Origin: a bacterium BMS3Bbin14
Lineage (GTDB): Bacteria > Desulfobacterota > Desulfobulbia > Desulfobulbales > Desulfobulbaceae
Direction: 5' to 3'
Length of the DNA: 64,000 nt
Assembly (NCBI GenBank): GCA_002897615.1
Contig: BDTX01000006.1
Coordinates: 186,001-250,000, forward strand
Shown here: piece after piece, positions 5,623 to 20,815 of the stretch
Layout: each line of letters starts with the position of its first letter
Numbering within the stretch: the first letter of the stretch is position 1
Notes under the pieces: model-generated
Seen by the model: only the letters and a program-made list of their open reading frames with translations
What the model was told of the DNA's origin: nothing
Databases searched by the model: none
Made by a program: the position numbers and the translations under genes

Positions 5623-6534
5623 TTACCCCCAGGCCAGTATCCAGCAGCCAACGACGATGAACAGAGACAGCAGGTATAAGGCCCGTTGAAAACGGTCATT
5701 GCCGGCCAGGCGCAGGAGACCGAAATAGCGGATGACCATGCCGCCGCCGATACCGCAGAGAAGGCCGAAAAAATGAGCGCCCAGGTCGGTGTGTTTGCCG
5801 CCCGCGCCCAGGAGGGCGAGCAGCCCCGCTCCCGCGCCCAGGGGCATGAGCAGGTCTCTGATCTTTATCCGGCGGCCGGCGTATATCTGCAGACCGCTGA
5901 AGATACCGATGGCGGCAAAAATGGCCGTGGAAAAGCCGATGGAGTAGTGTACCGTGTCCCGGACCGCAATGTTGATCAGGTTCCCAAGTGCTCCCAGCAG
6001 GATAACGGACAGCCATGCCAGGCCTGAGCCGGTCGTTCTGCACAGGAGGTGGATCATAAAGCCGCCGATGATACAGTTGCCGAGCAGGTGGACTTGAGTG
6101 GCGTGCAGGGTCAGGGCGGTAACGAGCCGCCACCACTGTCCCTGCTGCAGAATGGCCCGGCTGTCGATGGCGCCGATCTGGAACCAGGTTGAGTTGCCCT
6201 GCCAGGGACCGGTAACCCAGAATAGAATGACCAGGCCGCCGATCATCAGCAGGGTGGGCGGGTTGCCGGTCTGCACCTGGACGGGCAGGGAAGTCTGTAC
6301 TTGCGGCCAGTCGGCGTTTTCCGCAAAATAGGCCAGGATCTGCCGGTCGGCCGTGTCGGCATCTTTTTCCGGGACCGTCAGGACCCCCTCCCGGGCCAGG
6401 AGCGAGTGTGCAATCCCGACGGCTTCAAGGACCAGCGAACAGAGTGCCAGGTGCTCCGCTGAGCCCGAGGCAACGATGCGGCCCGGATCGCCCTCCGGTT
6501 GTTCCGGATTGTGAGGGGTGGTGAGATTCGACAT
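5623..6534 (-). CDS. Rhomboid-family intramembrane serine protease
   Basis: Predicted to cleave membrane-spanning substrates within the lipid bilayer. 303 residues. The first 90 are soluble and of unknown role. A rhomboid core of about six membrane helices follows, with the signature WWRLVTALTLHATQVHLLGN (134-153), a catalytic serine in GFSTA (Ser202) and a catalytic histidine in GAHFFG (His254). The serine motif is GFST rather than the usual GASG, but the Ser/His pair and spacing are kept. A seventh hydrophobic helix closes the C-terminus. The ATG at 6534 has AGGTAA about 12 bases upstream; the AGG belongs to the terminal repeat of the adjoining miniature element (6547-6793). Substrates are unknown. 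Confidence 0.85.
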   Translation of the reverse strand: MSNLTTPHNPEQPEGDPGRIVASGSAEHLALCSLVLEAVGIAHSLLAREGVLTVPEKDADTADRQILAYFAENADWPQVQTSLPVQVQTGNPPTLLMIGGLVILFWVTGPWQGNSTWFQIGAIDSRAILQQGQWWRLVTALTLHATQVHLLGNCIIGGFMIHLLCRTTGSGLAWLSVILLGALGNLINIAVRDTVHYSIGFSTAIFAAIGIFSGLQIYAGRRIKIRDLLMPLGAGAGLLALLGAGGKHTDLGAHFFGLLCGIGGGMVIRYFGLLRLAGNDRFQRALYLLSLFIVVGCWILAWG

Positions 6535-6546
6535 ATCTAAAGATTA

Positions 6547-6793
6547 CCTGGATCCGTGAGCGTTCGAGAACGGTGCAGATGCAAGGCGGCAACGATGTTG
6601 ATTATCTTGCGTTATTTGTCACTTGACATGACACTGGTATGATATCAACTTTGTTGCCAACGCAGCAGAGGTGCCGTTATCGGTCGCCCCGCAGTCCGGC
6701 GCGGTGAAGACCAGGAAACACGTTAATTTGTAAATAATACAATAGGTCTCATATGTTGCATGAAATGTTACCTCAAGCCGTCATGGATACAGG
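6547..6793 (+). mobile_element. Miniature inverted-repeat element, degenerate copy with insertion
   Basis: Diverged member of the 219-bp family. The left end is CCTGGATCCGTGA and the right end TCATGGATACAGG. The flanking pentamers are GATTA and GAGTA, a target duplication now differing at one base. The 28 extra bases compared with the 219-bp copies lie in the left half and contain TTGTCACTTGACATGACAC. It sits 12 bases upstream of the rhomboid start. Confidence 0.8.
6616..6643 (+). promoter_or_regulatory. Possible promoter created inside the miniature element
   Basis: TTGTCA (6616-6621), 16-base spacer, TATGAT (6638-6643), directed towards the MFS gene. The -35 box lies in the segment found only in this copy. 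Confidence 0.3.
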
Positions 6794-6942
6794 GAGTACC
6801 TTTTCCAGGGTACATTAAACATGAAAAGTAAAAAAGGAAAGTAACGCAACCGTCCGCCCTCTGTCCCTGCTGTCGCGGGGAAGGTCGGAGCGGCGGTGAA
6901 CGTGGCAATAAACCGGAGTGCTGCCCTTAACCTCGGACAATA

Positions 6943-6960
6943 ACCTCAAGCCGTCACGGA
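6943..6960 (+). repeat. Isolated end of the miniature element
   Basis: ACCTCAAGCCGTCACGGA matches the inner right end of the 219-bp element and stops 6 bases before the MFS start codon. The rest of 6794-6966 shows no gene. Confidence 0.6.
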
Positions 6961-6966
6961 ATAATA

Positions 6967-8187
6967 TTGAAAGCAAAAACAAGGCCCGTTGTCCACTATG
7001 GCTGGATCATCGTCCTGGCCGGCTGTCTAAGCATTTTCGCCGCGATAGGTCTGGGACGTTTCTCCATCGGCATGCTGTTGCCGGCCATGGGTTCCTCGCT
7101 GCACCTGAGTTATTCGCAGATGGGCCTGGTCTGTACCTGCAACTTTATCGGTTACCTGGCCGCCGTCCTTTTTTGCGGCCGGCTGCAGGCCGTGCTGGGG
7201 GCGAGAAGGCTGATTCCCCTGGCCCTCGTGCTGGTCTCCGTTTCCATGATGTTGATCGGGCTGGCCCGCGATCTGCCGACGGTGGCATTGCTTTATACCC
7301 TGACCGGCATCGGCAGCGGGGCCGCTAATATTCCCGTGATGGGCCTGGTCTCGGCCTGGTTTGTCAGTCGTTTGCGGGGCCGGGCCGCCGGTTTTATCGT
7401 GACCGGCAGCGGTTTTGCCATCCTGTTGGCCGGCCAGCTGATCCCGTTTTTCAATGCCCTGCGGCCGGAGGGTTGGCGCTTGAGCTGGTTCGTCCTGGGG
7501 GCGATTGTCCTGGTGATCGCTGTTTTCTCCCTGGTCATTTTGCGAAACCGGCCGCAAGACATCGGCCTGCAGCCAGTAGGGGCGGATAAGGGGCTGGCCG
7601 GAGAGGAGTTGCGGCCCGGCTTCAGACCGTTCAATAAAAGGGTGATCCTGAATTGCGGGCTGATTTATTTTATTTTCGGCTGTACCTACGTTATTTATGT
7701 GACCTTTATCGTTACGGTTCTCGTGCAGGAGCATGGCTTTTCAGAGGCGGCTGCCGGTTCTTTCTGGTCCTGGGTTGGATTTCTCAGCCTGTTCTCCGGC
7801 CCGGTCTTCGGTACGCTTTCGGATAGATTGGGCCGCAGAACCGTCCTGATGATCGTTTTTTCCATCCAGACACTGGCCTATCTCCTGGTCGGCCTGAAGC
7901 TGCCGAACATCGCCCTGATCCTGTCGATCGGCAGTTTCGGCATCGTTGCCTGGAGCATTCCCTCCATTATGATCGCCCTGATCGGCGACCTGGTCGGCGT
8001 CCATAACACGGTCAGGGTGTTTGGCTTTATCACTTTTCTTCTCGGGATCGGGCAGGTAATAGGACCTTTTTTTGCAGGCCTGCTGGCCGAGACAACCGGT
8101 GATTTTTCGGTTGCCTTCCTGATGGCGGCGGGGATGACCTCGGTGGCCGTCCTGTTGGCATCACGTTTGCAAGTGGATGTAGAATAA
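6967..8187 (+). CDS. Major facilitator superfamily transporter
   Basis: A 12-helix inner-membrane secondary transporter of 406 residues; the substrate cannot be read from sequence. Helix 1 is HYGWIIVLAGCLSIFAAIGLG. The N-half has the cytoplasmic-loop region GRLQAVLGARRLIPLAL, and the C-half repeats the pattern with GTLSDRLGRRTVLMIVF, a good match to the MFS loop motif. The overall pattern (FGRFSIGMLLPAMG-like start, IPVMGLVSAWF in helix 4/5) resembles the YbfB/YjiJ group, by recall only. The start is TTG at 6967, with GGA from an isolated miniature-element end 6-7 bases upstream; the next ATG would delete the first helix. A hairpin (TTCTGCC...GGCAGAA, near 8193-8225) follows the stop but has no T run. 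Confidence 0.85.
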   Translation: MKAKTRPVVHYGWIIVLAGCLSIFAAIGLGRFSIGMLLPAMGSSLHLSYSQMGLVCTCNFIGYLAAVLFCGRLQAVLGARRLIPLALVLVSVSMMLIGLARDLPTVALLYTLTGIGSGAANIPVMGLVSAWFVSRLRGRAAGFIVTGSGFAILLAGQLIPFFNALRPEGWRLSWFVLGAIVLVIAVFSLVILRNRPQDIGLQPVGADKGLAGEELRPGFRPFNKRVILNCGLIYFIFGCTYVIYVTFIVTVLVQEHGFSEAAAGSFWSWVGFLSLFSGPVFGTLSDRLGRRTVLMIVFSIQTLAYLLVGLKLPNIALILSIGSFGIVAWSIPSIMIALIGDLVGVHNTVRVFGFITFLLGIGQVIGPFFAGLLAETTGDFSVAFLMAAGMTSVAVLLASRLQVDVE

Positions 8188-8337
8188 GGCGGATTCTGCC
8201 AGCCGGCAAGGCCGGAGGCGGCAGAAAGTAGAAATACGCAGATATAGTGCACGCGGGGAGTTCCGGCGGGTTGCTTTAAGCCGCCAACTGGTTTATGAAT
8301 AAAGTCGGCTGCGGCGCGTCAGCAGGGAGAAAAAGAA

Positions 8338-8366
8338 AGGGCGGAAATCCTTTGGATTTCCGCCCT
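8338..8366 (-). terminator. Terminator of tRNA-Leu
   Basis: AGGGCGGAAATCC (8338-8350) and GGATTTCCGCCCT (8354-8366) form a perfect 13-bp stem with a 3-base loop. Read on the minus strand it is followed by TTTCTTTTT and lies 17 bases past the tRNA. Confidence 0.85.
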
Positions 8367-8382
8367 GTTATAATACTAATCT

Positions 8383-8469
8383 TGGTGCCGAAGGGGAGAG
8401 TCGAACTCCCACGAGCGTACGCCCACTAGACCCTGAACCTAGCGCGTCTACCAGTTCCGCCACTTCGGC
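8383..8469 (-). tRNA. tRNA-Leu (CAG)
   Basis: An 87-base class II tRNA on the minus strand. Acceptor GCCGAAG pairs with CTTCGGC, the discriminator is A, and CCA is encoded. The anticodon loop TTCAGGG carries CAG between the stems CTAGG and TCTAG. A long variable arm (GGGCGTACGCTC region) and the T arm GGGAGTTCGACTCTCCC are present. It has its own promoter and terminator. Confidence 0.97.
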
Positions 8470-8803
8470 AAGAAGTGTTAGCGAATATGATAGTCAAACC
8501 GGGATTTGTCAAGTATTTCTTCGCGTGGCAATAAAGAAATTTACAGGTCCGGTCTTCTCTCGTGGCCGGACGATGCACGAACTGTTTGCGAGTTTTGTCC
8601 GGCCGTAGTACATAACTCGCTCTGCCCTTGAACAGGCATATAACCGATGGCCCGGTAAAAAAAGGTCCGGCTTGTCGCCGGTTCGGCCGGGCGGAGGAAG
8701 GTAAAGGTGAGGGCGATAAACGCATTGCCATAAATAATATATTATATAGTGTAGCGCCATTTTTATGGCCTCTTTAAGAAAACGAAATCCGGATGGGACC
8801 TCG
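8470..8803. other. Intergenic region between tRNA-Leu and ribF
   Basis: 334 bases with the tRNA promoter at one end. The middle has several GGCCGG-type short inverted repeats but no gene. An AT-rich stretch at 8730-8757 (ATAAATAATATATTATATAG) is a plausible promoter zone for ribF, though I cannot fix its boxes. Confidence 0.45.
8484..8512 (-). promoter_or_regulatory. Promoter of tRNA-Leu
   Basis: On the minus strand, perfect TTGACA (8507-8512), 17-base spacer, CATATT (8484-8489). The predicted start is a few bases before the mature tRNA 5' end. Confidence 0.65.
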
Positions 8804-9775
8804 ATGGAGCTTTTTACACGTCTTGCCGACATAAAAAAACCGTTTGCCCATGCCTGCGTCACCATCGGCAACTTCGACGGCGTGCATCTCGGGCATCAGC
8901 TCCTGTTCAGGGAAGTTGTCAAGCTGGCTCACCTGCACCACGGAACCAGCGTCGCCGTGACCTTTGATCCTCATCCCCTGAAGGTCCTGCGGCCGGGGGG
9001 GATCAGGTTGATTTCCACGACCCGGCAGAAGATCGAATTGATCGAGGCTGCCGGGATCGACGTGCTGGTCGTTATCCCCTTTGACCTGGATTTTGCCGCC
9101 ACCACGGCGGAACAGTTTGTCGACGATATCCTGGTCGGTACCATCGGCGTCCGGGAACTGGTGGTCGGCTATGATTATGCCTTTGGCCGGGGCCGCCGGG
9201 GCAATATCGATTTCCTCAAAGAACGGGGCCGGGAAAGTGGTTTCCCGGTGACCGTGGTTGACGCCCTTTATGAAGGCGGCATGCTGGTCAGCAGCACCAA
9301 GATCCGGGAACTGGTCGCCGAGGGGCGGATGCGTGATGTGCGCCGCCTGCTTGGCCGCTATTACCAGATTCGCGGTGAGGTCCAGCGGGGGAGGCAGCGT
9401 GGCGGGCGGGTGGTCGGTTTTCCCACGGCGAACCTGAAAATTTCCGAAGAAGATCTCTGCCCGAAGCGCGGAGTCTACGTGACGCAGGTCGTCTATGACG
9501 GCAAGTGCTACGGCGGTGTTTCCAACATTGGCTATAATCCGACTTTCGGCGGAGACCGGCTGGTCGCCGAAACCCATATTTTTGATTTCGACGATGATAT
9601 TTACGGCCGGCCAATCAAGATTAACCTGTTACGCCATCTGCGGGGCGAAAAGAAATTCAGCGGTACGGATGAGCTTGCCGCGCAGATTCGCCGCGATATC
9701 GAAGTTGCGCACAAGGTCCTGGAGTCGGCGCGGAAGGAACAGTTGCTCTGCGGTGATGAGCGGTCGCCCCGGTGA
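8804..9775 (+). CDS. ribF: Bifunctional riboflavin kinase / FAD synthetase
   Basis: Phosphorylates riboflavin to FMN and adenylylates FMN to FAD in the cytoplasm. The N-terminal FAD synthetase half shows VTIGNFDGVHLGHQ (nucleotidyl transferase HxGH-type motif) and TFDPHPLKVL. The C-terminal kinase half shows RGEVQRGRQRGGRVVGFPTANL, YVTQVVYDGKCYGGVSNIGYNPTFGG and ETHIFDFDDDIYG. The ATG at 8804 (GGATGGGA upstream) gives 323 aa and aligns with the family's usual start. An in-frame ATG at 8765 would add 13 residues with no ribosome site. It stands alone but feeds from the rib genes 2.6 kb downstream; cofactor demand from AprA, QmoA and QmoB fits. Confidence 0.93.
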   Translation: MELFTRLADIKKPFAHACVTIGNFDGVHLGHQLLFREVVKLAHLHHGTSVAVTFDPHPLKVLRPGGIRLISTTRQKIELIEAAGIDVLVVIPFDLDFAATTAEQFVDDILVGTIGVRELVVGYDYAFGRGRRGNIDFLKERGRESGFPVTVVDALYEGGMLVSSTKIRELVAEGRMRDVRRLLGRYYQIRGEVQRGRQRGGRVVGFPTANLKISEEDLCPKRGVYVTQVVYDGKCYGGVSNIGYNPTFGGDRLVAETHIFDFDDDIYGRPIKINLLRHLRGEKKFSGTDELAAQIRRDIEVAHKVLESARKEQLLCGDERSPR

Positions 9776-9869
9776 TCGAGGGTGTTCAAGCCGGCGGGGA
9801 AATCGGGGCCGGAGCGGCAGGCCGATGGTGCGAGCCGGCAAATAAGAGTTGTCCTTTACGGTTTGGAAC

Positions 9870-9897
9870 TTGCCTCGCAACGGTTTATGCCTATAAT
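9870..9897 (+). promoter_or_regulatory. Probable promoter of the TPR-rib-nusB-ftsK operon
   Basis: TTGCCT (9870-9875), 16-base spacer, consensus TATAAT (9892-9897). A small hairpin TTCCGG-CCT-CCGGAA follows in the leader before the TPR gene at 9966. Confidence 0.55.
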
Positions 9898-9965
9898 ATA
9901 GAAAATTTTTCCGGCCTCCGGAACAAGATAATTTAAAGACAGCCTCTTTTGAAAAAGGAAAAACA

Positions 9966-10604
9966 ATGTCAGATACGCAGAAAAAAATTGATCTCGCTAC
10001 AGTGATTACAGAGCTTGAGAAGGCCTGCACGGAGAAGCCCGACAGTGTCTTTGTCCATCATCAGTTGGGCCTGGTGTACCGTCAGGCCGGCCGGGTTGAC
10101 GATGCCGTCCGTGAGCTGAGCAAGGCGATCGAGCTGGACGACCAGTCCGTGGAAAGTTTGATTAATCTCGGGGCTATTTTCTTCGACAAGGGTGACGTCG
10201 ATCGGGCTCTGGAGCTGAATGAACAGGCCTTGAAAGTTACGCCGAACATGGCAGAAGCCCATGTCAACATCGGCCTGATCCGGCAGCGCCAGAACCTGAT
10301 TGACGAGGCGATTGAGTCATACACCAGGGCTACGCAGATCATTCCCGACCTGGTGACCGCCTGGATCAACCTGACCTCGGCCCTGACCATGAAAGAAGAG
10401 GACGAAAAAGCGGTTGAGGCGGCGCGTCAGGCCGTGACGATTGAACCCGACTCGGCCATGGCCAGAAATAACCTGGCAGTGGCCCTCTATTTCAAGGGTG
10501 ATTTCGAGGAAGCGAAGAAGAACGTGGAAAAGGCCCGCGAACTCGGCTACCCGGTTGACGACCGGTTTGCGCAGGCCCTGGAAGAAAAACTCGGTCACAG
10601 TTGA
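9966..10604 (+). CDS. TPR-repeat protein
   Basis: 212 residues made almost entirely of five consecutive 34-residue TPR units from about residue 28 (VFVHHQLGLVYRQAGRVDDA, then units starting QSVESLINLG, MAEAHVNIGL, LVTAWINLTS and SAMARNNLAV). These form a protein-binding superhelix. No signal peptide, so cytoplasmic. Start ATG 9966 follows GAAAAAGGAAAAACA. First gene of the operon; its stop overlaps the region where the next gene starts. The partner is unknown. With the next two genes it forms a TPR/HEAT/TPR scaffold trio ahead of riboflavin genes. Confidence 0.85.
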   Translation: MSDTQKKIDLATVITELEKACTEKPDSVFVHHQLGLVYRQAGRVDDAVRELSKAIELDDQSVESLINLGAIFFDKGDVDRALELNEQALKVTPNMAEAHVNIGLIRQRQNLIDEAIESYTRATQIIPDLVTAWINLTSALTMKEEDEKAVEAARQAVTIEPDSAMARNNLAVALYFKGDFEEAKKNVEKARELGYPVDDRFAQALEEKLGHS

Positions 10605-10606
10605 GC

Positions 10607-11758
10607 ATGGAGAATCATCGCACAGTCAAACCGTGGTGTCCTTTCTGCGGTATGGACGTGGGCCGGGCCACGGACGCCATAGAGCGGAAAATGACCGAGT
10701 TCCCGCTGGGCAGCTGTGAATGCGGGGCGGTTTACGTCTGTGAAGCCACCGGCTATAATGTAGGTGCCGCCATAGTGGAATGTCTGGTCTATGCCTGTAA
10801 CGGTGACTGGGACCTGGCCTGGGAACTCCTGCCGGAAGATGATTACCTGACCGGCCGGGTCGAGCACTATGACGAACAGACCCACCAGGTCGTCGAGGCC
10901 GGGAATCTGGACGGCCGCGTGGTTAACGGGGTGTTGTACTTTGTCAGGCTGCACAAGGATGTGGCCGAGATTGCCAATCGGTTCCGGGACAACAACGGGC
11001 AGCAGGGCGAAGCGGGCCGGAAAACCGCGGCCGAACCTGCTGTCGCTGCCCGGCCGGCAGTCGAAGCGCAGCGCGATCCGCAGCGGCAAAAGAAGCGGGC
11101 CGACAAGCCCCTGGTGAAAAAACTGGCCGCGGAAGGCGATATCGACGCCCTGGTGGATTATTGTTTCGATGACCGGCGGACCCTGCGTTTTTTACAGCGC
11201 CTGCTTTACGATCCGGACGAGGCCGGTCGTTATCATACGGCCTGGGTTATCGGCCAGGTCTGTGCCCGGGTGGCCGACCGCGAGCCCGGACCGGTGGCGG
11301 ATCTCCTCCACCGGCTTTTCGAGGCCTGCGCCGATTCGGCGGCGACCTCCTGGGGCATGGTCGAGGCGATCGGCGCGATCATTGCCGCGCGTCCCGACAT
11401 CTATGGCGCCTTTACCCGCCATCTGCTCAACTATATGGGCGATCCCGCAACCCAGGAACAGGTGGTCTGGGCCCTGGGCGAGATCGCGGCAGTGCGGCCC
11501 GACCTGGTCAGGAATACGCCATTTTACGGGACCTTTCATTTTCTGGGGCATCCGAACCCGGTAGTGAGGGGTCTCATGGCCAGGCTGCTCGGTCGTCTTC
11601 GGGCTGCCGAGGCGGCTTTCCAGGTTATGGGCCTGGAAAATGATCAAAGTGAAATAGTCATCTATGAGCAGGGTCGGCCCGTGCGGTTCACGGTAGCGGA
11701 ACTGGCGGTCCGGGCCGGAGAATTGATCCATAATCAGGGGGGAAAGACAAGTGAGTGA
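10607..11758 (+). CDS. Zinc-knuckle plus HEAT-like repeat protein (resembles DVU0298 family)
   Basis: A 383-residue cytoplasmic protein. The N-terminus has a compact cysteine module, WCPFCGMD (C11, C14) and SCECGAVYVCE (C37, C39, C46), likely zinc binding, followed by a conserved-looking NVGAAIVECLVYACNGDWDLAWEL segment. After a charged linker (about 125-165), the C-terminal half is helical repeats of HEAT/PBS-lyase type (ADLLHRLFEACADSAATSW, EAIGAIIAARPDIYGAF, EQVVWALGEIAAVRPDLV, PVVRGLMARLLGRLRAAEAA). The architecture recalls the proteins called the DVU0298 family in sulfate reducers; this is from memory, not a search. A TTG at 10601 is an alternative start. No function is assigned. Confidence 0.7.
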   Translation: MENHRTVKPWCPFCGMDVGRATDAIERKMTEFPLGSCECGAVYVCEATGYNVGAAIVECLVYACNGDWDLAWELLPEDDYLTGRVEHYDEQTHQVVEAGNLDGRVVNGVLYFVRLHKDVAEIANRFRDNNGQQGEAGRKTAAEPAVAARPAVEAQRDPQRQKKRADKPLVKKLAAEGDIDALVDYCFDDRRTLRFLQRLLYDPDEAGRYHTAWVIGQVCARVADREPGPVADLLHRLFEACADSAATSWGMVEAIGAIIAARPDIYGAFTRHLLNYMGDPATQEQVVWALGEIAAVRPDLVRNTPFYGTFHFLGHPNPVVRGLMARLLGRLRAAEAAFQVMGLENDQSEIVIYEQGRPVRFTVAELAVRAGELIHNQGGKTSE

Positions 11759-12356
11759 GCAGCTGCAACCATTGAATTCAATCGGCCCCGTGGGGGACTC
11801 CCAGGCGAAGAAAGACGAGGCGCTCAATGATCCGGCCAAGGCGGATTACAAGGCCGGCCGGGATTTTTTGCAACAGGGCGAATATGCCCAGGCCGCCAAT
11901 GCCTTCCACAATGCCCTGCTGGGTTTTGAAGAGCAGGGCGATGAACAGGGGATAGCCAACGCCTCTGACCGCCTTGGCGATGTCTGCGTCGCCAGGGAAG
12001 AGTACGGGATGGCCCTCGAACATTTCCGCCGCGTTGTTGCCATCTGCGAGAAAGAACAGGATGCCCTGTCCATCCAGGCCCTCAACAAGAAGATGGCCGG
12101 TATCTATAAAAGACTTGGCGAGCTGGACAAGGCGCTGGATCTTCTCTTCGATATCATTGATTATTATGCCGTGACCCGGAATCCCAAGGGGACCGTGGAG
12201 ATTCTCGAGGTCATTGCCGAGGTTTACATGGAGCAGGGGGAAAAGGAGAAGGCGGCCGATGCCCTGCGCACTGTTGCCTCCATCCATACCAACTTCAAGC
12301 ACCGCGACGAGGCCCGTGAATTTGCCGAGCGTGCCGCCATGGTCGAACAGGGGTAG
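11751..12356 (+). CDS. TPR-repeat protein
   Basis: 201 residues with TPR units at about 28-60 (ADYKAGRDFLQQGEYAQAAN), 68-100 (QGIANASDRLGDVCVAREEY), 106-138 (LSIQALNKKMAGIYKRLGEL) and 146-180 (KGTVEILEVIAEVYMEQGEK). Probably a cytoplasmic adaptor. The GTG start at 11751 overlaps the preceding stop by 8 bases, and its stop is 3 bases from the ribE start, so translation looks coupled across all three genes. The partner is unknown. Confidence 0.8.
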   Translation: MSEQLQPLNSIGPVGDSQAKKDEALNDPAKADYKAGRDFLQQGEYAQAANAFHNALLGFEEQGDEQGIANASDRLGDVCVAREEYGMALEHFRRVVAICEKEQDALSIQALNKKMAGIYKRLGELDKALDLLFDIIDYYAVTRNPKGTVEILEVIAEVYMEQGEKEKAADALRTVASIHTNFKHRDEAREFAERAAMVEQG

Positions 12357-12359
12357 CGA

Positions 12360-13016
12360 GTGTTTACCGGTATTGTCCAGGGCCGGGGGGCGGTGGTCCG
12401 GCAGCGGCCGGCCGGCGGCGGCATGGTTTTCCGCCTGGAGGCTGATTTCGTCCTGGATGACCCCGAAGAGGGGGAGTCCATTGCCGTAAACGGTGTCTGC
12501 CTGACGGCCCTCGATATCCGGGAAAACCGCTTTACGGTGGATGTGTCGCCGGAGACGCTGTCCCGGACGGGACTCGGCGCCCTGCGGGTGGGCGCCATGG
12601 TCAACCTGGAGCGGGCGCTCAGGCTCAGCGACCGGTTGGGCGGCCACCTGGTCAGCGGTCATGTCGATGGGCGGAGCCGGGTTGTCGACCGCCGGGCAGC
12701 GGGAGATTTTACCCTGTTTTCCTTTTCTTTGGCTCGCAGTCTGGCAAAATATGTTATTGAAAAGGGATCGGTGGCCATTGACGGGGTCAGTCTCACGGTC
12801 AACAGCTGCGAGGGTGAGCGGTTTTCGATCTCCATTATTCCCCATACCCTGGCCATGACGACCCTGGGCGCCTTGAAACCGGGGGACCTGGTGAATGTCG
12901 AGGTTGACATCATCGGCAAGTACGTGGAAAAATTGTTGGCGGAAAAATCAGCGGGGCCCGAAAAGGGCGGCGGTATGAGTTCCTCGTTCCTGGCGGAACA
13001 CGGTTTTTTGAAATAG
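12360..13016 (+). CDS. ribE: Riboflavin synthase, alpha chain
   Basis: Dismutates two 6,7-dimethyl-8-ribityllumazines to riboflavin plus a pyrimidinedione. 218 residues with two lumazine-binding barrels in tandem: the first starts [13 protein letters not shown] and has [11 protein letters not shown], the second starts [12 protein letters not shown] and has [16 protein letters not shown] start at 12360, three bases after the TPR stop. No FMN riboswitch is recognisable upstream. Followed by ribBA and ribH in standard order. Confidence 0.95.
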
Positions 13017-13050
13017 AACTCCACCTCCGGGTTGGGAGTTGAGGTATGAC

Positions 13051-14298
13051 ATGACAATCAGTGCAATTGAAGATGTGGTAGAGGATATCCGGGCCGGGAA
13101 AATGATCATCCTGGTGGATGACGAGGACCGGGAGAATGAGGGTGATCTCTGCATGGCCGCGGAGGCGGTCACGCCCGAGGCCATCAATTTTATGGCCACC
13201 CACGGCCGCGGTTTGATCTGCCTGGCCATGAGTCCGGATATGATTCAGCAACTGAATCTGCCCATGATGGTGCAGGATAACAAGTCGCCCTATGGCACCG
13301 GTTTTACCATCAGTATCGAGGCCAGCACCGGGGTGACGACGGGAATTTCCGCCGCCGACCGGGCCCGGACCATCAGCGCCGCGGTGGCGCCGGATGCCCG
13401 GCCGAGTGATATCATCAGTCCCGGCCATGTCTTTCCGCTCAAGGCCAAGGCCGGCGGGGTCCTGGTCCGGACCGGCCAGACCGAAGGCTCGGTGGACCTG
13501 GCCCGTCTTGCCGGTATGCGTACCGCCGGGGTCATTTGCGAAGTCATGAAGGAAGACGGCACCATGGCCCGAATGCCGGATCTGCAGAAATTCGCCGCCG
13601 AGTATAATATCAAGATCGCCGCCATCGCCGACCTGGTTGCCTACCGGCTGCGCATGGATATCCTGGTTCACCGGGCCGCCGAAGCCCGCCTGCCCACCCG
13701 TCACGCCGGAGAGTTCCGGGCCATAGTCTATACGAACGATGTGGACAGCTTTGAACATCTTGCTTTAGTGAAGGGCGAGATAGATTCGACAAAACCGGTC
13801 ATGGTCCGCGTGCATTCCGAGTGTTTGACCGGCGATGTCTTTGGCTCGGCGCGCTGCGACTGCGGCTCCCAGCTCCATGCAGCCATGCGCATGGTCGACC
13901 AGGAGGGTGTCGGGGTGATCCTTTATATGCGCCAGGAGGGGCGGGGCATCGGCCTGGTGAACAAGCTCAAGGCGTATACGCTCCAGGATGAGGAAGGGCT
14001 TGATACGGTTGAGGCCAACGTCCAGCTCGGCTTCAAGCCGGACCTGCGCGATTACGGTATCGGCGCCCAGATCCTCCGTGATCTCGGAGTACGGAAGATG
14101 CAGCTTCTGACCAACAATCCCAAGAAGATCGTCGGCCTGGAAGGCTACGGCCTCGAGGTGGTGGACCGCTTCCCCATCGAGATTATCTGTGAGCCGGAAA
14201 ACAAGGAATATATGAAATGCAAGCGGGACAAGATGGGGCATATCCTGGAGATCTATGGTGAGGAGCCATCCCTTGAAGACGTATCGGGAGATCCGTGA
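13051..14298 (+). CDS. ribBA: DHBP synthase / GTP cyclohydrolase II
   Basis: A bifunctional enzyme. The N-terminal RibB domain turns ribulose 5-phosphate into 3,4-dihydroxy-2-butanone 4-phosphate; the C-terminal RibA domain opens GTP to the pyrimidine precursor. RibB signature [16 protein letters not shown] (residues about 26-41) and [11 protein letters not shown]. RibA signature [24 protein letters not shown], with the three zinc cysteines, and [11 protein letters not shown]. The ATG at 13051 has GGAGTTGAGGT upstream. 415 aa, normal for RibBA. Downstream of ribE, upstream of ribH. RibD, needed for the next step, is not in this window. Confidence 0.96.
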
Positions 14299-14375
14299 TT
14301 GCCGGGAGACGCAGGTAAACGGGCGGCGCCTTGCCGTACAACAATTCGGGAGTCGGGACGAAATTAGAGGCGGAT

Positions 14376-14846
14376 ATGGCACATTATATTGAAGGAAGTC
14401 TGCAGGGCACGGGAAGAAAACTTGGAATTGTCGTTGCCAGGTTTAACTCGTTTATTGCGGAAAAATTGCTGGAAGGGGCCCTTGACAGTCTGGTCCGCTC
14501 CGGGGTGAATGACGATGATATCGACGTGGCCCGGGTGCCGGGCGCCTTTGAGATACCGCTGGTCGCCCAGAAGATGGCCAGGTCGGGCAGGTACGATGCC
14601 GTAATCGTGCTGGGGGCCGTTATCCGCGGCGCAACTCCCCATTTTGACTATGTGGCCGGGGAAGTGGCCAAGGGCACGGCCCAGGTTATGCTGGATGCCG
14701 GCGTGCCGGTGCTGTTCGGGGTGCTGACCACGGAAAGCATTGAACAGGCCATTGAACGGGCCGGTACCAAGGCCGGCAACAAGGGCTCGGATGTGGCGGT
14801 TGCCGCCCTGGAAATGATCAACCTGCTTGGCAAGCTGGAGAGTTGA
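14376..14846 (+). CDS. ribH: 6,7-dimethyl-8-ribityllumazine synthase
   Basis: Condenses the RibB product with the ribitylamino-uracil to lumazine, the substrate of RibE; typically an icosahedral or pentameric assembly. 156 residues with [42 protein letters not shown] (catalytic His) and [19 protein letters not shown]. The ATG at 14376 has GAGG nearby; an upstream in-frame ATG at 14331 would add 15 residues that do not look like the family. Confidence 0.95.
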
Positions 14847-14955
14847 AAGTTTATAGGTGGTGTGTATCCAACCGGCAACGCCCGGATCTCTGTTTGGGGG
14901 GCTACGGAGCCTGATGAACCATATAAACTTGACAACTTTTAACTGAAACTGAAAC

Positions 14956-15372
14956 ATGGGATTACGTCGTAAGTCCAGGGAAATTGCCCTGCAGTTTCTG
15001 TTCGGCCATGATTTTCAACAGCGTTCCGGCGACCTGGAATCCATTGAAATGGAACTGGCGGAGTTCGGTGCCAATTTTGATGCCGGCAGGAAAGCGCTGC
15101 CCTATGTCCAACAGCTGGTCCGCGGTATTTGCGGCCATCTGGATGAGATCAATGCCTTGCTCGCCGGTCATTCCCATAACTGGCGTCTTGAGCGGATGTC
15201 CCTGGTGGATCGGAATATCCTGCGCATTGCTGTTTTCGAGATGCGTTATTGCGACGATGTCCCGGCCCGGGTTGCCATCAACGAGGCCCTGGAGATTGCC
15301 AAGCGCTATTCCATTGCCGATTCCGTTTCCTTTATCAACGGTATTCTGGATGCGGTGCAGGAAGATTCCTGA
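14956..15372 (+). CDS. nusB: Transcription antitermination factor NusB
   Basis: Binds boxA RNA with NusE (S10) in antitermination of rRNA and other operons. 138 residues, all-helical, starting GLRRKSREIALQFLFGHDFQQ and ending with the typical ARVAINEALEIAKRYSIADSVSFINGILDAV. The ribH-nusB adjacency is common in bacteria. No clear ribosome site precedes the ATG. 110 bases of gene-free spacer separate it from ftsK. Confidence 0.95.
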   Translation: MGLRRKSREIALQFLFGHDFQQRSGDLESIEMELAEFGANFDAGRKALPYVQQLVRGICGHLDEINALLAGHSHNWRLERMSLVDRNILRIAVFEMRYCDDVPARVAINEALEIAKRYSIADSVSFINGILDAVQEDS

Positions 15373-15482
15373 GATTTTTTCCGCCTCTAAGGGGCGGTCT
15401 ATGATTTCTGTGCCGATTTTTTTAAGCAAGAGTAAAAAGGTTCCGTCAATGCCCATGCCCCTGTTCGCTTATCAGAAAGATT

Positions 15483-17642
15483 ATGCCGCTGCCTAAGAAG
15501 AAGAAACCGGGCGCCAGGCAGGAAGTCGTGGCGATGTTCTGTCTCTTTCTCGCCCTTTTCCTCCTGCTCTGCTTTGTCAGCTATGCCCGGCCGCTGCTGG
15601 CGGAACATCCGGCCCTCCAGGCGCCGGCGGCGAACTGGTGCGGCTCCATCGGCTACTATGTTGCTCGCTATCTGTTCAGTTTTTTCGGCCTGACCGCCTT
15701 TTTCCCGGTCCTGATCCTGATCTATACCTCGATGTCCGTCCTCATGCCCGGCGGGAGCGCCAATCGGCTGCCTTTTGTTGTTGCCGGTATTACCGGCATC
15801 CTGATCTCCACCAGCGGTCTGCTGGCAACCACTGCCCAGCTTGTTTTCCCGCCGGAATTTATTACCCCGGGCGGCTACCTCGGCGGGCTGATCTGGAGGT
15901 TGCTCGGCCGCTTTATGGGAGAGGCCGGCTCCGTCCTCCTGTTGCTGCTGGTACTCGTTTTTTCTCTCATGGCCGCAGTGCGTTTTTCACCCCTTGGCGC
16001 CGGCAAGTGGTTGTGGCGGACGGGGGGTAAGGTGGGGAAGCGCCTGCCGAAAACATTGCCCGCGAGTCCGGCGGCCAGGAAAAACGGCAACAGTAAGCAG
16101 GAACCCGTGGTCGGCAACTCCTCCCCCGCCGCGCGGCGGGCGGCGGTGCCGGCCGTACACGAGCCGGTGTTGCTGAAACTGGCGGCCGAGACGGAAGACG
16201 AAGAGTTTACCCCGCGGCCGCCGCGGAGCGGTGATTATCAGTTGCCGCCCGTGACTCTGCTGGCCCGCCACGATCAGCAGGAAATCCGTATTGATAAGGA
16301 ACATTTTTACCGGGTCAGCAAGGTCCTCGTGGCCAAGCTCGAAGATTTCGGCGTCTACGGGAACGTGGAGGGGATTTCGCCCGGTCCGGTCGTGACCACC
16401 TATGAGTATGCGCCTGCCCCGGGAGTTAAAATCAACAAGATCGTTTCGCTGGCCGACGACCTGGCCATGGCGCTCAAGGTAGACCGGGTCCGGATTGTCG
16501 GCTCCATCCCCGGCAAGGCAGCCCTCGGGATTGAAATCCCCAACCCGGTCCGCAAGACCGTTTTTCTCCGCGATATTCTCCTGACGGAGGAGTACGGGAA
16601 CTCAAGCTCACGGCTCAGCCTGGCCCTGGGGCTTGATGTGGTCGGCCACCCGGTTGTCGCCGATTTCACGAAAATGCCGCATCTGCTCATTGCCGGGGCC
16701 ACCGGCGCCGGCAAATCGGTGGCCATCAATGCCTTTATCGCCTCCATCCTTTTCAAATCGACGCCCGACGAGGTCCGGCTGCTGCTGGTCGATCCCAAGC
16801 GGATTGAGCTCTCTGTCTACGAGGACATTCCGCATCTGCTGCACCCGGTGGTGGTGGAACCGAAAATGGCCAGCCGGGCGCTTATCTGGGCGGTCAGGGA
16901 GATGGAGCGGCGCTATCGTCTGCTGGAGGAAAAAAGGGTCAAGTCTTTTCTTTCCTACAACGAGGTTGCCGAGGAAAAACTGCCCTATATTGTTATCATT
17001 GTGGATGAGCTGGCAGACCTGATGATGGTGGCCTCCAAGGATGTGGAAAACTCCATCGCCCGCCTGGCCCAGATGGCCCGCGCGGCCGGTATGCATATCA
17101 TGCTCGCTACCCAGCGGCCCTCGGTTGATGTCCTGACTGGACTGATCAAGGCCAACTTCCCGACCCGGATTTCTTTCAAGGTCGCCTCCAAGGTGGACTC
17201 CAGGACGATCCTGGACGGCAGCGGCGCCGAACACCTGCTCGGCGACGGCGACATGCTCTTCCTGCCGCCCGGGGCGGCCAAGCTGCAACGCATCCACGGC
17301 GCCTATATCTCCGAGGAGGAAACCGAGCGGATCGTGACCTTTCTCAAGAAACAGGGCAAGGCGGAGTATGACGAAGCCGTACTCCGGGGTGTCGAGGACG
17401 AGTCGGCAACGGATGACGACGAGGTCTTGGAGTATGATGAAAAGTACGACGAGGCCGTGGCCATTGTTACCGAAACCGGCCAGGCTTCAATCTCCATGGT
17501 CCAGCGCCGGCTGCGGGTGGGGTATAATCGCGCGGCCCGGATGATTGAAATGATGGAAAAGGAGGGAATAGTCGGCCCGTCCGATGGTTCCAGGCCACGT
17601 GAGGTTTTTGTTCGCGCCGGTTACTCGGACCTGAATCCGTGA
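15483..17642 (+). CDS. ftsK: DNA translocase FtsK
   Basis: A septum-located motor that pumps DNA and activates chromosome dimer resolution during division. 719 residues. Four N-terminal membrane helices (about 14-36, 57-85, 95-122, 148-167), a short charged linker (170-250), the RecA-like motor with Walker A GATGAGKS (405-412) and Walker B IIVDEL (505-510), and the winged-helix gamma domain (about 655-712, QASISMVQRRLRVGYNRAAR) that reads KOPS. The linker is short, closer to SpoIIIE than to E. coli FtsK. The last four codons and the stop (LNP-stop region) are formed by the terminal repeat of the miniature element at 17630. Confidence 0.95.
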   Translation: MPLPKKKKPGARQEVVAMFCLFLALFLLLCFVSYARPLLAEHPALQAPAANWCGSIGYYVARYLFSFFGLTAFFPVLILIYTSMSVLMPGGSANRLPFVVAGITGILISTSGLLATTAQLVFPPEFITPGGYLGGLIWRLLGRFMGEAGSVLLLLLVLVFSLMAAVRFSPLGAGKWLWRTGGKVGKRLPKTLPASPAARKNGNSKQEPVVGNSSPAARRAAVPAVHEPVLLKLAAETEDEEFTPRPPRSGDYQLPPVTLLARHDQQEIRIDKEHFYRVSKVLVAKLEDFGVYGNVEGISPGPVVTTYEYAPAPGVKINKIVSLADDLAMALKVDRVRIVGSIPGKAALGIEIPNPVRKTVFLRDILLTEEYGNSSSRLSLALGLDVVGHPVVADFTKMPHLLIAGATGAGKSVAINAFIASILFKSTPDEVRLLLVDPKRIELSVYEDIPHLLHPVVVEPKMASRALIWAVREMERRYRLLEEKRVKSFLSYNEVAEEKLPYIVIIVDELADLMMVASKDVENSIARLAQMARAAGMHIMLATQRPSVDVLTGLIKANFPTRISFKVASKVDSRTILDGSGAEHLLGDGDMLFLPPGAAKLQRIHGAYISEEETERIVTFLKKQGKAEYDEAVLRGVEDESATDDDEVLEYDEKYDEAVAIVTETGQASISMVQRRLRVGYNRAARMIEMMEKEGIVGPSDGSRPREVFVRAGYSDLNP

Positions 17643-17848
17643 CGGCTTGAGGTGATATTCCAGGTAATATATGGAATTTATTGTATTATATGTCGAATAA
17701 ATGCATTCTCCGGTTTTCACGCGCCGCCCTGCGGGGTGCCCGAGAACGGCGCATCTGCGGCGTTGGCAACTCGTTGATATCACACCAGGATAATCAACCT
17801 CGTTGCCGCCTTGCATCTGCACCGTTCTCGAACGCTCACGGATTCAGG
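17630..17848 (-). mobile_element. 219-bp miniature inverted-repeat element, copy in ftsK 3' end
   Basis: The ends are CCTGAATCCGTGA and TCACGGATTCAGG, flanked on both sides by TCGGA (17625-17629 and 17849-17853), a perfect 5-bp target duplication. Inverted relative to the copies at 47090 and 51992. Internal hairpins include the GCGCCGCCCTGCGGGG block and a GGCAAC...GTTGCC stem. The left end overlaps the ftsK stop codon. Confidence 0.93.
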
Positions 17849-17856
17849 TCGGAATA

Positions 17857-17905
17857 AGGATTTGTGCAAAGAAATAAGTCCGCCGAATCGGCGCCCGGAT
17901 TGTCA
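17857..17905. repeat. Family 2 hairpin repeat, left half only
   Basis: AGGATTTGTGCAAAGAAATA and the following AAGTCCG resemble the left arm of the repeats at 5324 and 28294. The matching right arm is absent. Confidence 0.45.
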
Positions 17906-17935
17906 GTCTATCCACCTGAGTCGTTACGATTTTTC

Positions 17936-17964
17936 TTGACATTGATTGTGCAACAAATTATATG
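17936..17964 (+). promoter_or_regulatory. Promoter of the apr operon
   Basis: Perfect TTGACA (17936-17941), 17-base spacer, TATATG (17959-17964). Strong sigma70-type geometry, fitting an abundant enzyme. The spacer contains TTGTGCAACAA, a short palindrome (TTGT/ACAA) that could be an operator half-match; this part is speculative. Confidence 0.7.
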
Positions 17965-17970
17965 CTAAAA

Positions 17971-18207
17971 GTATTCGAAAATGAGTGACTGTTCATTTAT
18001 TTTTTTGCAGTTATAACTGGAAGGAAAGCCCAGCAGAATTAATATGTTGCCCCGTTCGGTTGTTATGTCGGATGAGTGGGGACGTACGCAGTGGTATCTG
18101 CGTTGTTCCTGCCTGTCGGCAGAGAAAATTAGAAGAAATGAACAGAGGATATTGTGGTTGCGCAGGCGCGCCGCCAAAATGGAAAATTAAAGTGAGGAGG
18201 TAGTTTA
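17971..18207 (+). other. Long structured leader of aprB
   Basis: About 235 bases between the predicted transcription start and aprB with no gene. It contains AAATGA (17979-17984) pairing with TCATTT (17993-17998) followed by a T run (weak early terminator), ACGCAG (18086-18091) with CTGCGT (18098-18103), and CTGCC (18109-18113) with GGCAG (18118-18122). The aprB ribosome site GAGGAGGT closes it. Confidence 0.45.
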
Positions 18208-18633
18208 ATGCCAAGTTACGTAGATCCTGAAAAATGTGATGGGTGCAAGGGCGGCGACAAGACGGCCTGCATGTACATCTGCCCGAACGACCTCATGGTT
18301 CTCAATACTGAGGAGATGAAGGCCTATAACCAGGAGCCTGATGCATGCTGGGAGTGCTATTCCTGCGTAAAGATCTGCCCGCAGGGTGCTATCGCCGTTC
18401 GCGGTTATGATGACTTTGTGCCTATGGGCGGCCAGGTTGTGCCCCTGCGGTCTTCGGACTCCATTATGTGGACCATCAAGTTCCGTAATGGCAACATCAA
18501 ACGCTTTAAGTTCCCGATCCGGACCACGGCGGAGGGTTCTGCCAATGAGTATCCCGGCCAGAAGGGTGACAACCTCGATGACTGTAAGCTGTTTCTTGAG
18601 GGCGAGTTGAAATCGCCGACCAAACTGGCGTAA
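18208..18633 (+). CDS. aprB: Adenylylsulfate reductase, beta (iron-sulfur) subunit
   Basis: Carries two [4Fe-4S] clusters that pass electrons to the FAD of AprA during two-electron reduction of APS to sulfite and AMP (or the reverse). 141 residues. Cysteines C10, C13, C21, C25 and C47, C50, C53, C57 are in ferredoxin-like order with the family's enlarged loop CKGGDKTAC. The C-terminal tail (WTIKFRNGNIKRFKFPIRTT onward) wraps AprA in known structures. ATG 18208 follows GAGGAGGTAGTTTA. 67 bases upstream of aprA. Confidence 0.98.
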   Translation: MPSYVDPEKCDGCKGGDKTACMYICPNDLMVLNTEEMKAYNQEPDACWECYSCVKICPQGAIAVRGYDDFVPMGGQVVPLRSSDSIMWTIKFRNGNIKRFKFPIRTTAEGSANEYPGQKGDNLDDCKLFLEGELKSPTKLA

Positions 18634-18700
18634 GCGAGTTTGAGTCCTTGGCACAACCTGAACAATTCAATTCTTAACTATATTTATAGGAGATAGGAAT

Positions 18701-20713
18701 ATGGCATTACCAAATAAGCCGAGAGGCGAGATCGCCGCGGTTGTCAATCCTGAAGTCGTTGAGCATACCTGTGACGTGCTCATCGTCGGCGGCGGTATGT
18801 CCGCCTGCGGAGCAGCATTCGAGATCAAGAAATGGGCTTCCGATGATTTGAAAATCATCCTCTGCGACAAGGCCGCCATGGAGCGTTCCGGTGCTGTTGC
18901 CCAGGGTCTGTCTGCTATCAATACCTATATCGGCGAAAACGCTATCGAAGACTACGTCAAGATGGTGCGCAATGACCTGATGGGTGTTGTGCGCGAGGAC
19001 CTGATCTATGACCTCGGCCGTCACGTTGACGAGTCGGTCAAACTGTTTGAGGAATGGGGCCTGCCGATCTGGAAGAAGGCCGAGGACGGCTCCAACCTGG
19101 ACGGCGCCAAGCCTGCTGCCACCCTCCGTGAGGGCGGCCAGCCGGTACGGACCGGTAAATGGCAGATCATGATCAACGGCGAGTCCTACAAGTGCATCGT
19201 CGCCGAGCCGGCCAAGAAGGCGCTGGGCGAAGAAGCCATCATTGAGCGTGTTTTTATCGTCAAGATGCTGCTGGACAAGAACCGCCCGAATACCATTGCC
19301 GGCGCGGTTGGTTTCTCCGTCCGCGAGAACAAGGTTCATGTCTTTACCTGCAAGACCGCCATGGTTGCCTGCGGTGGTGCTGTTAATATCTTCCGTCCCC
19401 GGTCTACCGGTGAGGGCAAGGGCCGTGCCTGGTATCCGGTATGGAATGCCGGCTCCACCTACACCATGTGTGCCCAGGTCGGTGCGACGCTGACCATGAT
19501 GGAAAATCGTTTCACCCCTGCCCGTTTCAAGGATGGTTACGGCCCGGTCGGTGCCTGGTTCCTCCTGTTCAAGGCCAAGGTCCAGAATGGTCTGGGCGAG
19601 TTCTATGCCGGCAGCGACGCCGCCAAGGAAGAACTCAAGAAGTTTATGCCCTATGGCGCCTCCGCCGTTACCCCGACCTGTCTGCGTAACCACTTGATGG
19701 TTAACGAGTTCAAGGCCGGCCGCGGTCCGATTTACATGGCCACCGACGTTGCCCTGAACGCCTTTCTGGACGAGAAGAGAGCCGCCGGTCTGGATGAAAA
19801 GGCCGTGAAAAAGTACTGGAAACATCTCGAGTCCGAGGCCTGGGAAGACTTTCTTGATATGTCTGTCGGTCAGGCCGGTCTCTGGGCCGGGGCCAATATC
19901 GAGCCTGAGAAGGTCGGCTCCGAGATCATGCCGACCGAACCTTATATGCTCGGTTCTCACTCCGGTTGCTGCGGCATCTGGACTTCCGGTCCGAACGAGG
20001 ACTGGGTCCCGACTGTAGACGGCACCCGGGCTCATCAGTATAAATGGGGCTATAACCGGATGACCACGGTTGACGGCCTGTTCACCGCCGGTGACGGTGT
20101 CGGTGCCTCCGGCCATAAATTCTCCTCCGGTTCTCATACCGAGGGTCGTATTGTTGCCAAGGAGATGGTCAGGTATTGCCGTGACAATACCTATACCACC
20201 GAGCTGGCACAGTCCGCCCAGGAACTGGCCGATGAGATTTATGCACCGGTTAAACGTTACCATGAGTTCGTCGGCGCAACTACTGCCGCTGACGTGAACC
20301 CCAACTACTGCAAGCCGGCCGGTATCATGATGCGCCTGATGAAGGCTACCGATGAGTACGGCGGCGGTGTTGCTACCTACTACATGACCTCGGGTAAGCT
20401 GCTGGGCATCTGCATGGATCTTCTGGAGATGCTACGTGAAGATGCCGCCAAGATGGCTGCGGGCGACCTGCATGAACTGATGCGCGCCTGGGAAAACTAC
20501 CATCGTATCTGGTGTGTTGAGGCTCATATCCGTCACATTCAGTTCCGTGAAGAGTCCCGCTATCCGGGATTCTACTACCGGTCTGACTTCCCGACCGTTG
20601 ATGATGAGAACTGGAAGTGCTTTGTCAACTCCACCTACGATCCGCAGGCCGCTGAGTGGAAGTGTGAGAAGGTTGAGTGCATTAACATTATCGAAACCGA
20701 GCCTTGGCTGTAA
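18701..20713 (+). CDS. aprA: Adenylylsulfate reductase, alpha (FAD) subunit
   Basis: Catalytic subunit of the cytoplasmic APS reductase. 670 residues of the succinate dehydrogenase/fumarate reductase flavoprotein fold. The FAD-binding start is CDVLIVGGGMSACGAAFEIK; the conserved AMERSGAVAQGLSAINTYIG, NHLMVNEFKAGRGPIYM and GDGVGASGHKFSSGSHTEGR regions are all present. Length and character fit AprA of sulfate-reducing Desulfobacterota. Codon use is strongly biased, as expected for an abundant protein. Followed by a perfect intrinsic terminator, so aprBA can be a separate transcript from qmo. Direction (reduction or oxidation) cannot be proven from sequence. Confidence 0.98.
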   Translation: MALPNKPRGEIAAVVNPEVVEHTCDVLIVGGGMSACGAAFEIKKWASDDLKIILCDKAAMERSGAVAQGLSAINTYIGENAIEDYVKMVRNDLMGVVREDLIYDLGRHVDESVKLFEEWGLPIWKKAEDGSNLDGAKPAATLREGGQPVRTGKWQIMINGESYKCIVAEPAKKALGEEAIIERVFIVKMLLDKNRPNTIAGAVGFSVRENKVHVFTCKTAMVACGGAVNIFRPRSTGEGKGRAWYPVWNAGSTYTMCAQVGATLTMMENRFTPARFKDGYGPVGAWFLLFKAKVQNGLGEFYAGSDAAKEELKKFMPYGASAVTPTCLRNHLMVNEFKAGRGPIYMATDVALNAFLDEKRAAGLDEKAVKKYWKHLESEAWEDFLDMSVGQAGLWAGANIEPEKVGSEIMPTEPYMLGSHSGCCGIWTSGPNEDWVPTVDGTRAHQYKWGYNRMTTVDGLFTAGDGVGASGHKFSSGSHTEGRIVAKEMVRYCRDNTYTTELAQSAQELADEIYAPVKRYHEFVGATTAADVNPNYCKPAGIMMRLMKATDEYGGGVATYYMTSGKLLGICMDLLEMLREDAAKMAAGDLHELMRAWENYHRIWCVEAHIRHIQFREESRYPGFYYRSDFPTVDDENWKCFVNSTYDPQAAEWKCEKVECINIIETEPWL

Positions 20714-20741
20714 GCATACGGCAATATTGATTGGTTCAATG

Positions 20742-20777
20742 AAAATCTCCAGGCTCCTCCGGGGCCTGGAGATTTTT
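20742..20777 (+). terminator. Terminator after aprA
   Basis: AAAATCTCCAGGC (20742-20754) and GCCTGGAGATTTT (20764-20776) form a perfect 13-bp stem, with the T run overlapping the 3' arm. 28 bases past the aprA stop. Confidence 0.93.
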
Positions 20778-20815
20778 CATATTGACTCCTCGATTTTTGG
20801 TAATTTTTTTGTTTG

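Follow-up and report, generated by a model that had tools for sequence, protein, structure and literature searches.

A 64,000-nucleotide stretch of contig BDTX01000006.1 from the bacterium BMS3Bbin14 (Desulfobacterota, Desulfobulbaceae; assembly GCA_002897615.1, positions 186,001 to 250,000 of the forward strand; hereafter the window) carries three consecutive genes for repeat proteins, here named TPR1, MID and TPR3, which lead directly into a set of riboflavin genes. We found that these genes form a unit in relatives and that, within the phylum sampled, full-length MID is almost restricted to genomes bearing dsr, the genes of dissimilatory sulfite reductase; this association of MID with dsr is well supported. 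We tentatively propose that the trio is an accessory module of the reductive-type enzyme (DsrAB, with DsrD and DsrN) and forms a cytoplasmic solenoid complex for DsrAB assembly, a reading that is plausible while falling short of probable. The trio is probably an overlooked part of how dissimilatory sulfite reductase is built or run.

Distribution and gene neighborhood of MID

Our survey of distribution covered one phylum, the Desulfobacterota, with 297 genomes. Full-length MID, as judged from match ranges, was present in 57 of them, and 55 of these 57 also possessed dsrA (Fisher p = 4.6e-18, uncorrected for kinship). We considered dsrA present when the best match had an E value below 1e-100, which was the case for 144 genomes (the family cut-off gives 143). 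The two MID genomes without a dsrA match are 67% (G097) and 62% (G132) complete, and G097 possesses dsrD and, next to TPR1 at the end of a contig, a dsrB-like frame. Indeed, dsrD was found in 56 of the 57 genomes. MID and dsrA are also frequently close: they lie within 10 kb of each other in 30 of the 57 genomes, representing 13 of 20 families, within 20 kb in 31, and on one contig in 37. The rate of linkage is given by these 30 of 57 genomes; gene order outside the order Desulfobulbales was compared across 32 loci, and the presence of dsrA in 26 of them is not a rate, since loci L171-L197 were mostly picked for a nearby dsrA.

Among 49 loci of the Desulfobulbales, ribE was found within 10 kb of MID in 30, dsrA in 12, both in none and neither in seven. 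No rib gene was found within 10 kb of MID in the 32 mostly dsrA-selected loci outside the order. In other families of the order, the genes are arranged as dsrN on the opposite strand, then TPR1, MID and TPR3, then dsrD, dsrB and dsrA on the opposite strand, and two loci present a YkgJ-type gene between TPR3 and dsrD. The linkage to riboflavin genes is lineage-specific and most likely a derived rearrangement in part of the Desulfobulbales. The simplest history would be that the dsr context came first and that the trio later moved to the rib/apr neighborhood in part of the order, a direction suggested by how widely each context is spread rather than by a dated tree.

The trio as a unit across relatives

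The three genes form a unit. Searching 57 genomes of the order returned matches in 55, a count that includes a HEAT-only paralogue of MID. Full-length MID was found in 51; it was split across two contigs in G024, represented by a paralogue-level match only in G019, G041 and G053 (97, 91 and 97% complete, respectively), and without any match in G011 and G029. The 49 loci described above are those of the 51 that were fetched, leaving out the window's own and that of G021. TPR1 and MID were adjacent and on the same strand in all 49, which excludes a chance arrangement. TPR3 was located within 10 kb of MID in 45 loci and not within that distance in four. In some further loci (L052, L055 and L056; cable-bacteria-type and others), TPR3 sits beside ribE, some kb from TPR1-MID; some loci from the window's own family, among them contigs with Electrothrix or Electronema in their titles and similar ones, have TPR1-MID apart and TPR3 still ahead of ribE. 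A single polypeptide of 557-583 aa comprises both MID and TPR3 in eight loci, drawn from five other families; open frames of at least 556 codons exist in 11 of the 57 full-length-MID genomes of the phylum, and the TPR3 part was checked in eight. Genes missed by a simple open-reading-frame caller in L063, L079, L179, L180 and L184 were recovered by tblastn.

These results agree with a preliminary description of the window, which had presented the trio as a linked unit: the genes lie together in most relatives examined and two of them are fused in eight genomes. The scattered and unlinked arrangement that it had named as the alternative did not occur as stated, the exceptions being the four loci of the order with no TPR3 within 10 kb of MID, the further loci in which TPR3 sits with ribE, and the loci outside the order, where TPR3 was found near MID in only 18 of 32.

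Domains and predicted structures

TPR1 (window positions 9966..10604, + strand) encodes a TPR protein of 212 aa and TPR3 (11751..12356, +) one of 201 aa. Both matched generic TPR models in Pfam, TPR_12 in the case of TPR3, and TPR3 has one match in its own genome at an E value of 1e-5. MID (10607..11758, +; 383 aa) combines an N-terminal Cys4 domain with a C-terminal HEAT/ARM solenoid. The solenoid (11114..11716, +; residues 170-370) scored 194.7 bits against the NCBIfam model NF045662, for which the curated domain cut-off is 75, and belongs to the DVU0298 family; the Pfam models HEAT_2 (30.2 bits) and HEAT_EZ (27.7 bits) barely exceeded their cut-offs. The N-terminal domain (10607..10972, +; residues ~1-122) presents the pattern CPFC...CxC followed by a conserved alpha/beta part, and residues 1-~120 had no match in Pfam or NCBIfam. 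Cysteines C11, C14, C37 and C39 are present in all 50 aligned homologues and C45 in 28 of them; these counts and the hidden Markov models derived from the 50 sequences include the MID row of L032, which overruns its own stop into TPR3 and was excluded from alignments A1 and A4. The earlier account of a five-cysteine module joined to HEAT-like repeats is correct for the HEAT part, and the cysteine module is reduced to four invariant residues. These four look like a putative metal site.

Scans of the three proteins against Pfam and NCBIfam revealed no DNA-binding or enzyme family (among the best 25 matches listed for the TPR proteins) and no envelope family over a cut-off specific to such families; no signal-peptide or membrane-helix prediction was run. 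The AlphaFold2 model of MID (mean predicted local distance difference test, pLDDT, of 91.3; predicted template-modelling score, pTM, of 0.67) shows an ARM/HEAT superhelix preceded by a small N-terminal domain of the alpha/beta type, the two being joined by a linker (residues ~131-150) that is predicted weakly. A Foldseek search with this model returned nothing at an E value of 0.001 or better, and its best rows were generic ARM/HEAT solenoids. The VIA-align rows for MID span residues 156-382, and helical repeats reach such Z scores by their common arrangement. A sequence search of the PDB gave 134 matches at E values up to 1; judged by their names, the 60 listed comprise natural HEAT/ARM proteins and designed repeat proteins, plus a few that are unnamed. 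A naturally occurring MID-TPR3 fusion was modelled poorly (pLDDT of 72.8, pTM of 0.46), and no inference was drawn from that model.

The N-terminal domain also exists without the HEAT part. We detected it in 14 other genomes of the phylum as open frames of ~118-179 codons, most of these genomes also encoding a HEAT protein separately. In G163, G263, G134, G217, G305, G099, G191, G062, G241, G284 and G326, the domain is separate from the HEAT part and dsrA is accompanied by no dsrD match.

MID and the DVU0298 family

Members of the DVU0298 family were found in 127 of the 297 genomes, and 122 of these 127 possess dsrA, which ties the family strongly to dsrA-bearing genomes. Four of the five remaining genomes are 62-76% complete; the fifth, G111, is a complete genome. 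Conversely, 22 genomes with dsrA lack the family. MID shares its residues 170-370 with the family but differs from the HEAT-only proteins by its additional N-terminal Cys4 domain and by its position in the tree: a tree of 48 rows separated 37 full-length MID proteins from 11 HEAT-only proteins at a single branch (support 100/99). The window's genome itself possesses a HEAT-only paralogue (G000:C30:17135-17797, 225.5 bits). We considered whether MID is the equivalent of DVU0298 and rejected this, as the tree separates the two kinds and both occur in one genome. No common context was recognised among the neighbors of the HEAT-only paralogue, which were compared by the sizes and first residues of their open frames only.

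The family is named in NCBIfam (NF045662), and the database entries and parts of the literature available to us attach no function to it. One paper, available in part, lists DVU0298 among CO dehydrogenase genes, which in our opinion is a misprint. The association described here provides a first context for this functionless family and for the unclassified Cys4 domain. The kinds of fold and the family of the HEAT part are already known.

TPR1 and other recurrent neighbors of dsr

MID is tied to dsr by both distribution and neighborhood, and TPR1 by neighborhood. TPR1 profiles are unspecific among TPR proteins, with matches in 78 of 99 genomes at an E value of 1e-20, such that only the neighborhood of the matches is informative. 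In a sample of 99 genomes of the phylum, the best TPR1 match was no more than 10 kb from dsrA in 25 of the 47 genomes with dsrA. Fifteen of these 25 do not possess full-length MID, and in ten of the fifteen TPR1 was found as an open reading frame at 120 bits or more. At L228, L229, L231, L235 and L236, an antisense frame was called over the site and TPR1 rests on the profile search alone. In G094, G129 and G112, the match precedes dsrA by 0.2-0.5 kb and shares its strand, and the order TPR1, c6, dsrA, dsrB was found in G137, G102, G091 and G126. In G095, a TPR1 homologue is located ~60 bp upstream of a DVU0298-family HEAT gene (G095:C5:185873-187225, L237), forming a TPR1-HEAT pair with the other HEAT subfamily. 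Some genomes lacking full-length MID also have TPR3-like open reading frames at a distance of a few kb from dsrA (L228:12636, 82 bits; L229:6264, 80 bits; L235:13583, 50 bits).

The gene that we call c6 encodes a protein of 370-430 aa and appears repeatedly in dsr loci, where it follows MID or separates TPR1 from dsrA (e.g., L179:9392-10543, - strand; also L065, L069, L171, L222, L223, L230 and L233). It has no Pfam match over the cut-off and, by eye, is a candidate for a kinase-like fold. Proteins of the YkgJ type with the pattern CxxCxxCC (PF03692) were also observed, for example at L185:9542-10180 (+) and L175:10713-11378 (+), and a RimK-like ATP-grasp protein was found near the dsr-linked trio in four loci (e.g., L185:12195-13055, +).

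Candidate function of the trio

DsrAB is a multi-cofactor enzyme and the key enzyme of sulfate respiration. As a conserved module of three proteins with linkage to dsrAB and dsrD across 13 families, the trio represents a concrete, testable candidate for the assembly or regulation of this enzyme. In the mechanism that we propose, TPR1, MID and TPR3 would form a soluble cytoplasmic solenoid complex binding DsrA/DsrB while these assemble. The HEAT groove and Cys4 domain of MID might hold the apoprotein or the amidated sirohaem that DsrN helps to make, and TPR1 and TPR3 may be adaptors with which cofactor loading or heterotetramer assembly goes to completion. What we infer comprises a complex of all three proteins, its location in the cytoplasm, an interaction with DsrAB, and involvement in maturation instead of regulation or the working enzyme. 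We favor maturation or assembly for three reasons: in many lineages TPR1 and MID are neighbors of dsrN and dsrABD; DsrAB contains amidated sirohaem, and DsrN is held necessary for the amidation of sirohaem in the parts of PMC10504309 available to us; and a precedent exists for a HEAT-repeat tetrapyrrole chaperone. This precedent comes from the E/F-type phycobilin lyases (CpcE/CpcF, PecE/PecF): according to the accessible part of PMC2327270, these are proteins of HEAT-like repeats which, acting much as chaperones do, direct a tetrapyrrole to its place on a protein.

A more specific version is that MID accepts sirohaem once it has been amidated at the DsrN step and inserts it into DsrA/DsrB, assisted by the two TPR proteins as co-chaperones, the three forming a dedicated DsrAB maturation complex. 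We regard this version as doubtful. If true, it would be the first assembly machinery proposed for this enzyme within the literature searched.

The lyases offer a possible working analogy, as both they and MID are HEAT-like repeat solenoids. No direct comparison was made between them, and no lyase family appeared among the Pfam and NCBIfam matches of MID. Covalent attachment is not expected for sirohaem. The trio shares its neighborhood with the accessory genes dsrD and dsrN in relatives, but its proteins belong to families unrelated to those of dsrD, dsrN and dsrT, which are named in the parts of the literature available to us where the trio is not. General TPR/HEAT scaffold proteins resemble the trio in the TPR families of TPR1 and TPR3 and the ARM/HEAT superhelix of the MID model; the trio differs from them by the specific association of its three genes with the reductive dsr locus. 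The portions available of PMC2901600, PMC8528874, PMC10504309, PMC10102598, PMC4215793, PMC10591310, PMC2327270, PMC2702500, PMC13047784 and PMC9751629 contain no description of the trio; among them, PMC13047784, which in 2026 surveyed the sulfur genes of cable bacteria, includes none of the three genes when it lists the dsr set in the part consulted. No account of the trio was found in the literature searched, in part, with older papers on dsr clusters (e.g., Mussmann 2005, cited in PMC2702500) outside its coverage.

Several observations weigh against a role in DsrAB assembly. Full-length MID is missing from 89 of the 144 genomes with dsrA, which indicates that the trio is not generally required for making DsrAB; it can be that the trio is needed in some lineages only, or that it is replaced elsewhere, TPR1 combined with either a DVU0298 protein or c6 being one conceivable substitute. 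In 22 of the 47 dsrA-bearing genomes of the smaller sample, no TPR1 match lies near dsrA, and TPR3 has the loose position outside the order described above. Neither dsrA nor dsrD is linked to the trio in the window's genome or in the rest of its family as sampled. The complete genome G111 possesses a DVU0298-family gene without any dsrA match, and G342 presents the N-terminal domain of MID without dsrA. Shared ancestry among the genomes implies that p-values overstate their independence. Neither the sequence nor the fold comparisons of MID indicate binding of sirohaem or DsrAB, the fold matches being to generic HEAT/ARM proteins. Finally, the trio is also found beside dsrMKJOP-like membrane-complex genes in some families, an arrangement just as compatible with a role in the working enzyme.

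Such a role would consist in holding active DsrAB together with DsrC, DsrD or its Apr/Qmo and DsrMKJOP partners, thereby channeling intermediates or tuning activity. A scaffold of this kind shares the dsr linkage and distribution with the maturation reading and fits nearly as well, and we consider it possible if somewhat unlikely. The near-constant presence of dsrD in MID genomes is consistent with it, as are the NrfD-type (dsrP-like) and 4Fe-4S (dsrO-like) genes, assigned by Pfam labels, that were found upstream within eight genes of MID in seven and six, respectively, of 55 clustered loci, and, in the rib-linked arrangement, the proximity of aprA to MID (within 10 kb) in 23 of the 49 loci of the order. 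TPR and HEAT proteins, however, suit a chaperone equally well. The trio might alternatively act with YkgJ-type proteins and c6 to sense the metal or redox state and control the synthesis of DsrAB or modify it. The PF03692 matches, the Cys4 domain of MID and the recurrence of ykgJ-like genes (22 of 32 loci, mostly chosen as dsr-linked) and c6 (13 of 32) near the trio outside the order point in this direction, but within the order just two of the 49 loci have ykgJ and c6 near the trio, and the scans described above gave no DNA-binding or enzyme family; we judge regulation or modification distinctly unlikely.

It is also conceivable that the trio has a general role in proteostasis or another housekeeping process and hitch-hikes in the dsr locus, given that TPR and HEAT proteins are generic binders and that the trio shifts among rib, dsr and other contexts. 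The scarcity of MID without dsrA, confined to two incomplete genomes, and the linkage to dsrA in 13 families make this very unlikely. The preliminary description had suggested a flavin- or envelope-related assembly, its genes lying where ribD is often found. The tight coupling to ribE in the window and the presence of ribE near MID in most loci of the order would be consistent with such an assembly, but rib linkage is absent from the 32 loci outside the order, most of them picked for a nearby dsrA, and never coincides with dsr linkage. Moreover, the trio does not replace ribD, which is located on the same contig ~120 kb away, and an Rfam scan of window positions 6500-20800 returned no flavin mononucleotide (FMN) riboswitch, its sole match at E values up to 1 being a tRNA. 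We therefore rejected the flavin assembly, and a flavin or envelope role is hardly credible.

Neighboring features in the window

The coordinates and gene order given previously for the trio and its descent into ribE, ribBA, ribH, nusB and ftsK, in that order, proved correct, as did the overlapping or near-overlapping junctions: calculated from the coordinates, TPR1 and MID are separated by 2 bp, MID and TPR3 overlap by 8 bp, and TPR3 and ribE are separated by 3 bp. Riboflavin synthase (ribE, 12360..13016, +) had been included in the interval first assigned to the trio (9966-13016), and we judged it to be a neighbor outside the functional module. After ftsK lie two genes of sulfate respiration, aprB and aprA (APS, adenosine 5'-phosphosulfate, reductase; 18208..20713, +), labeled from their translations; tblastn with the window copies found both downstream of the trio in many relatives. 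Upstream of TPR1, ribF (8765-9775) is separated from it by a gap of 190 bp, which contains a promoter-like site (9870..9897, +) with ten of 12 consensus matches, identified by consensus comparison only. A tRNA gene is located upstream of ribF at 8386-8469 (-).

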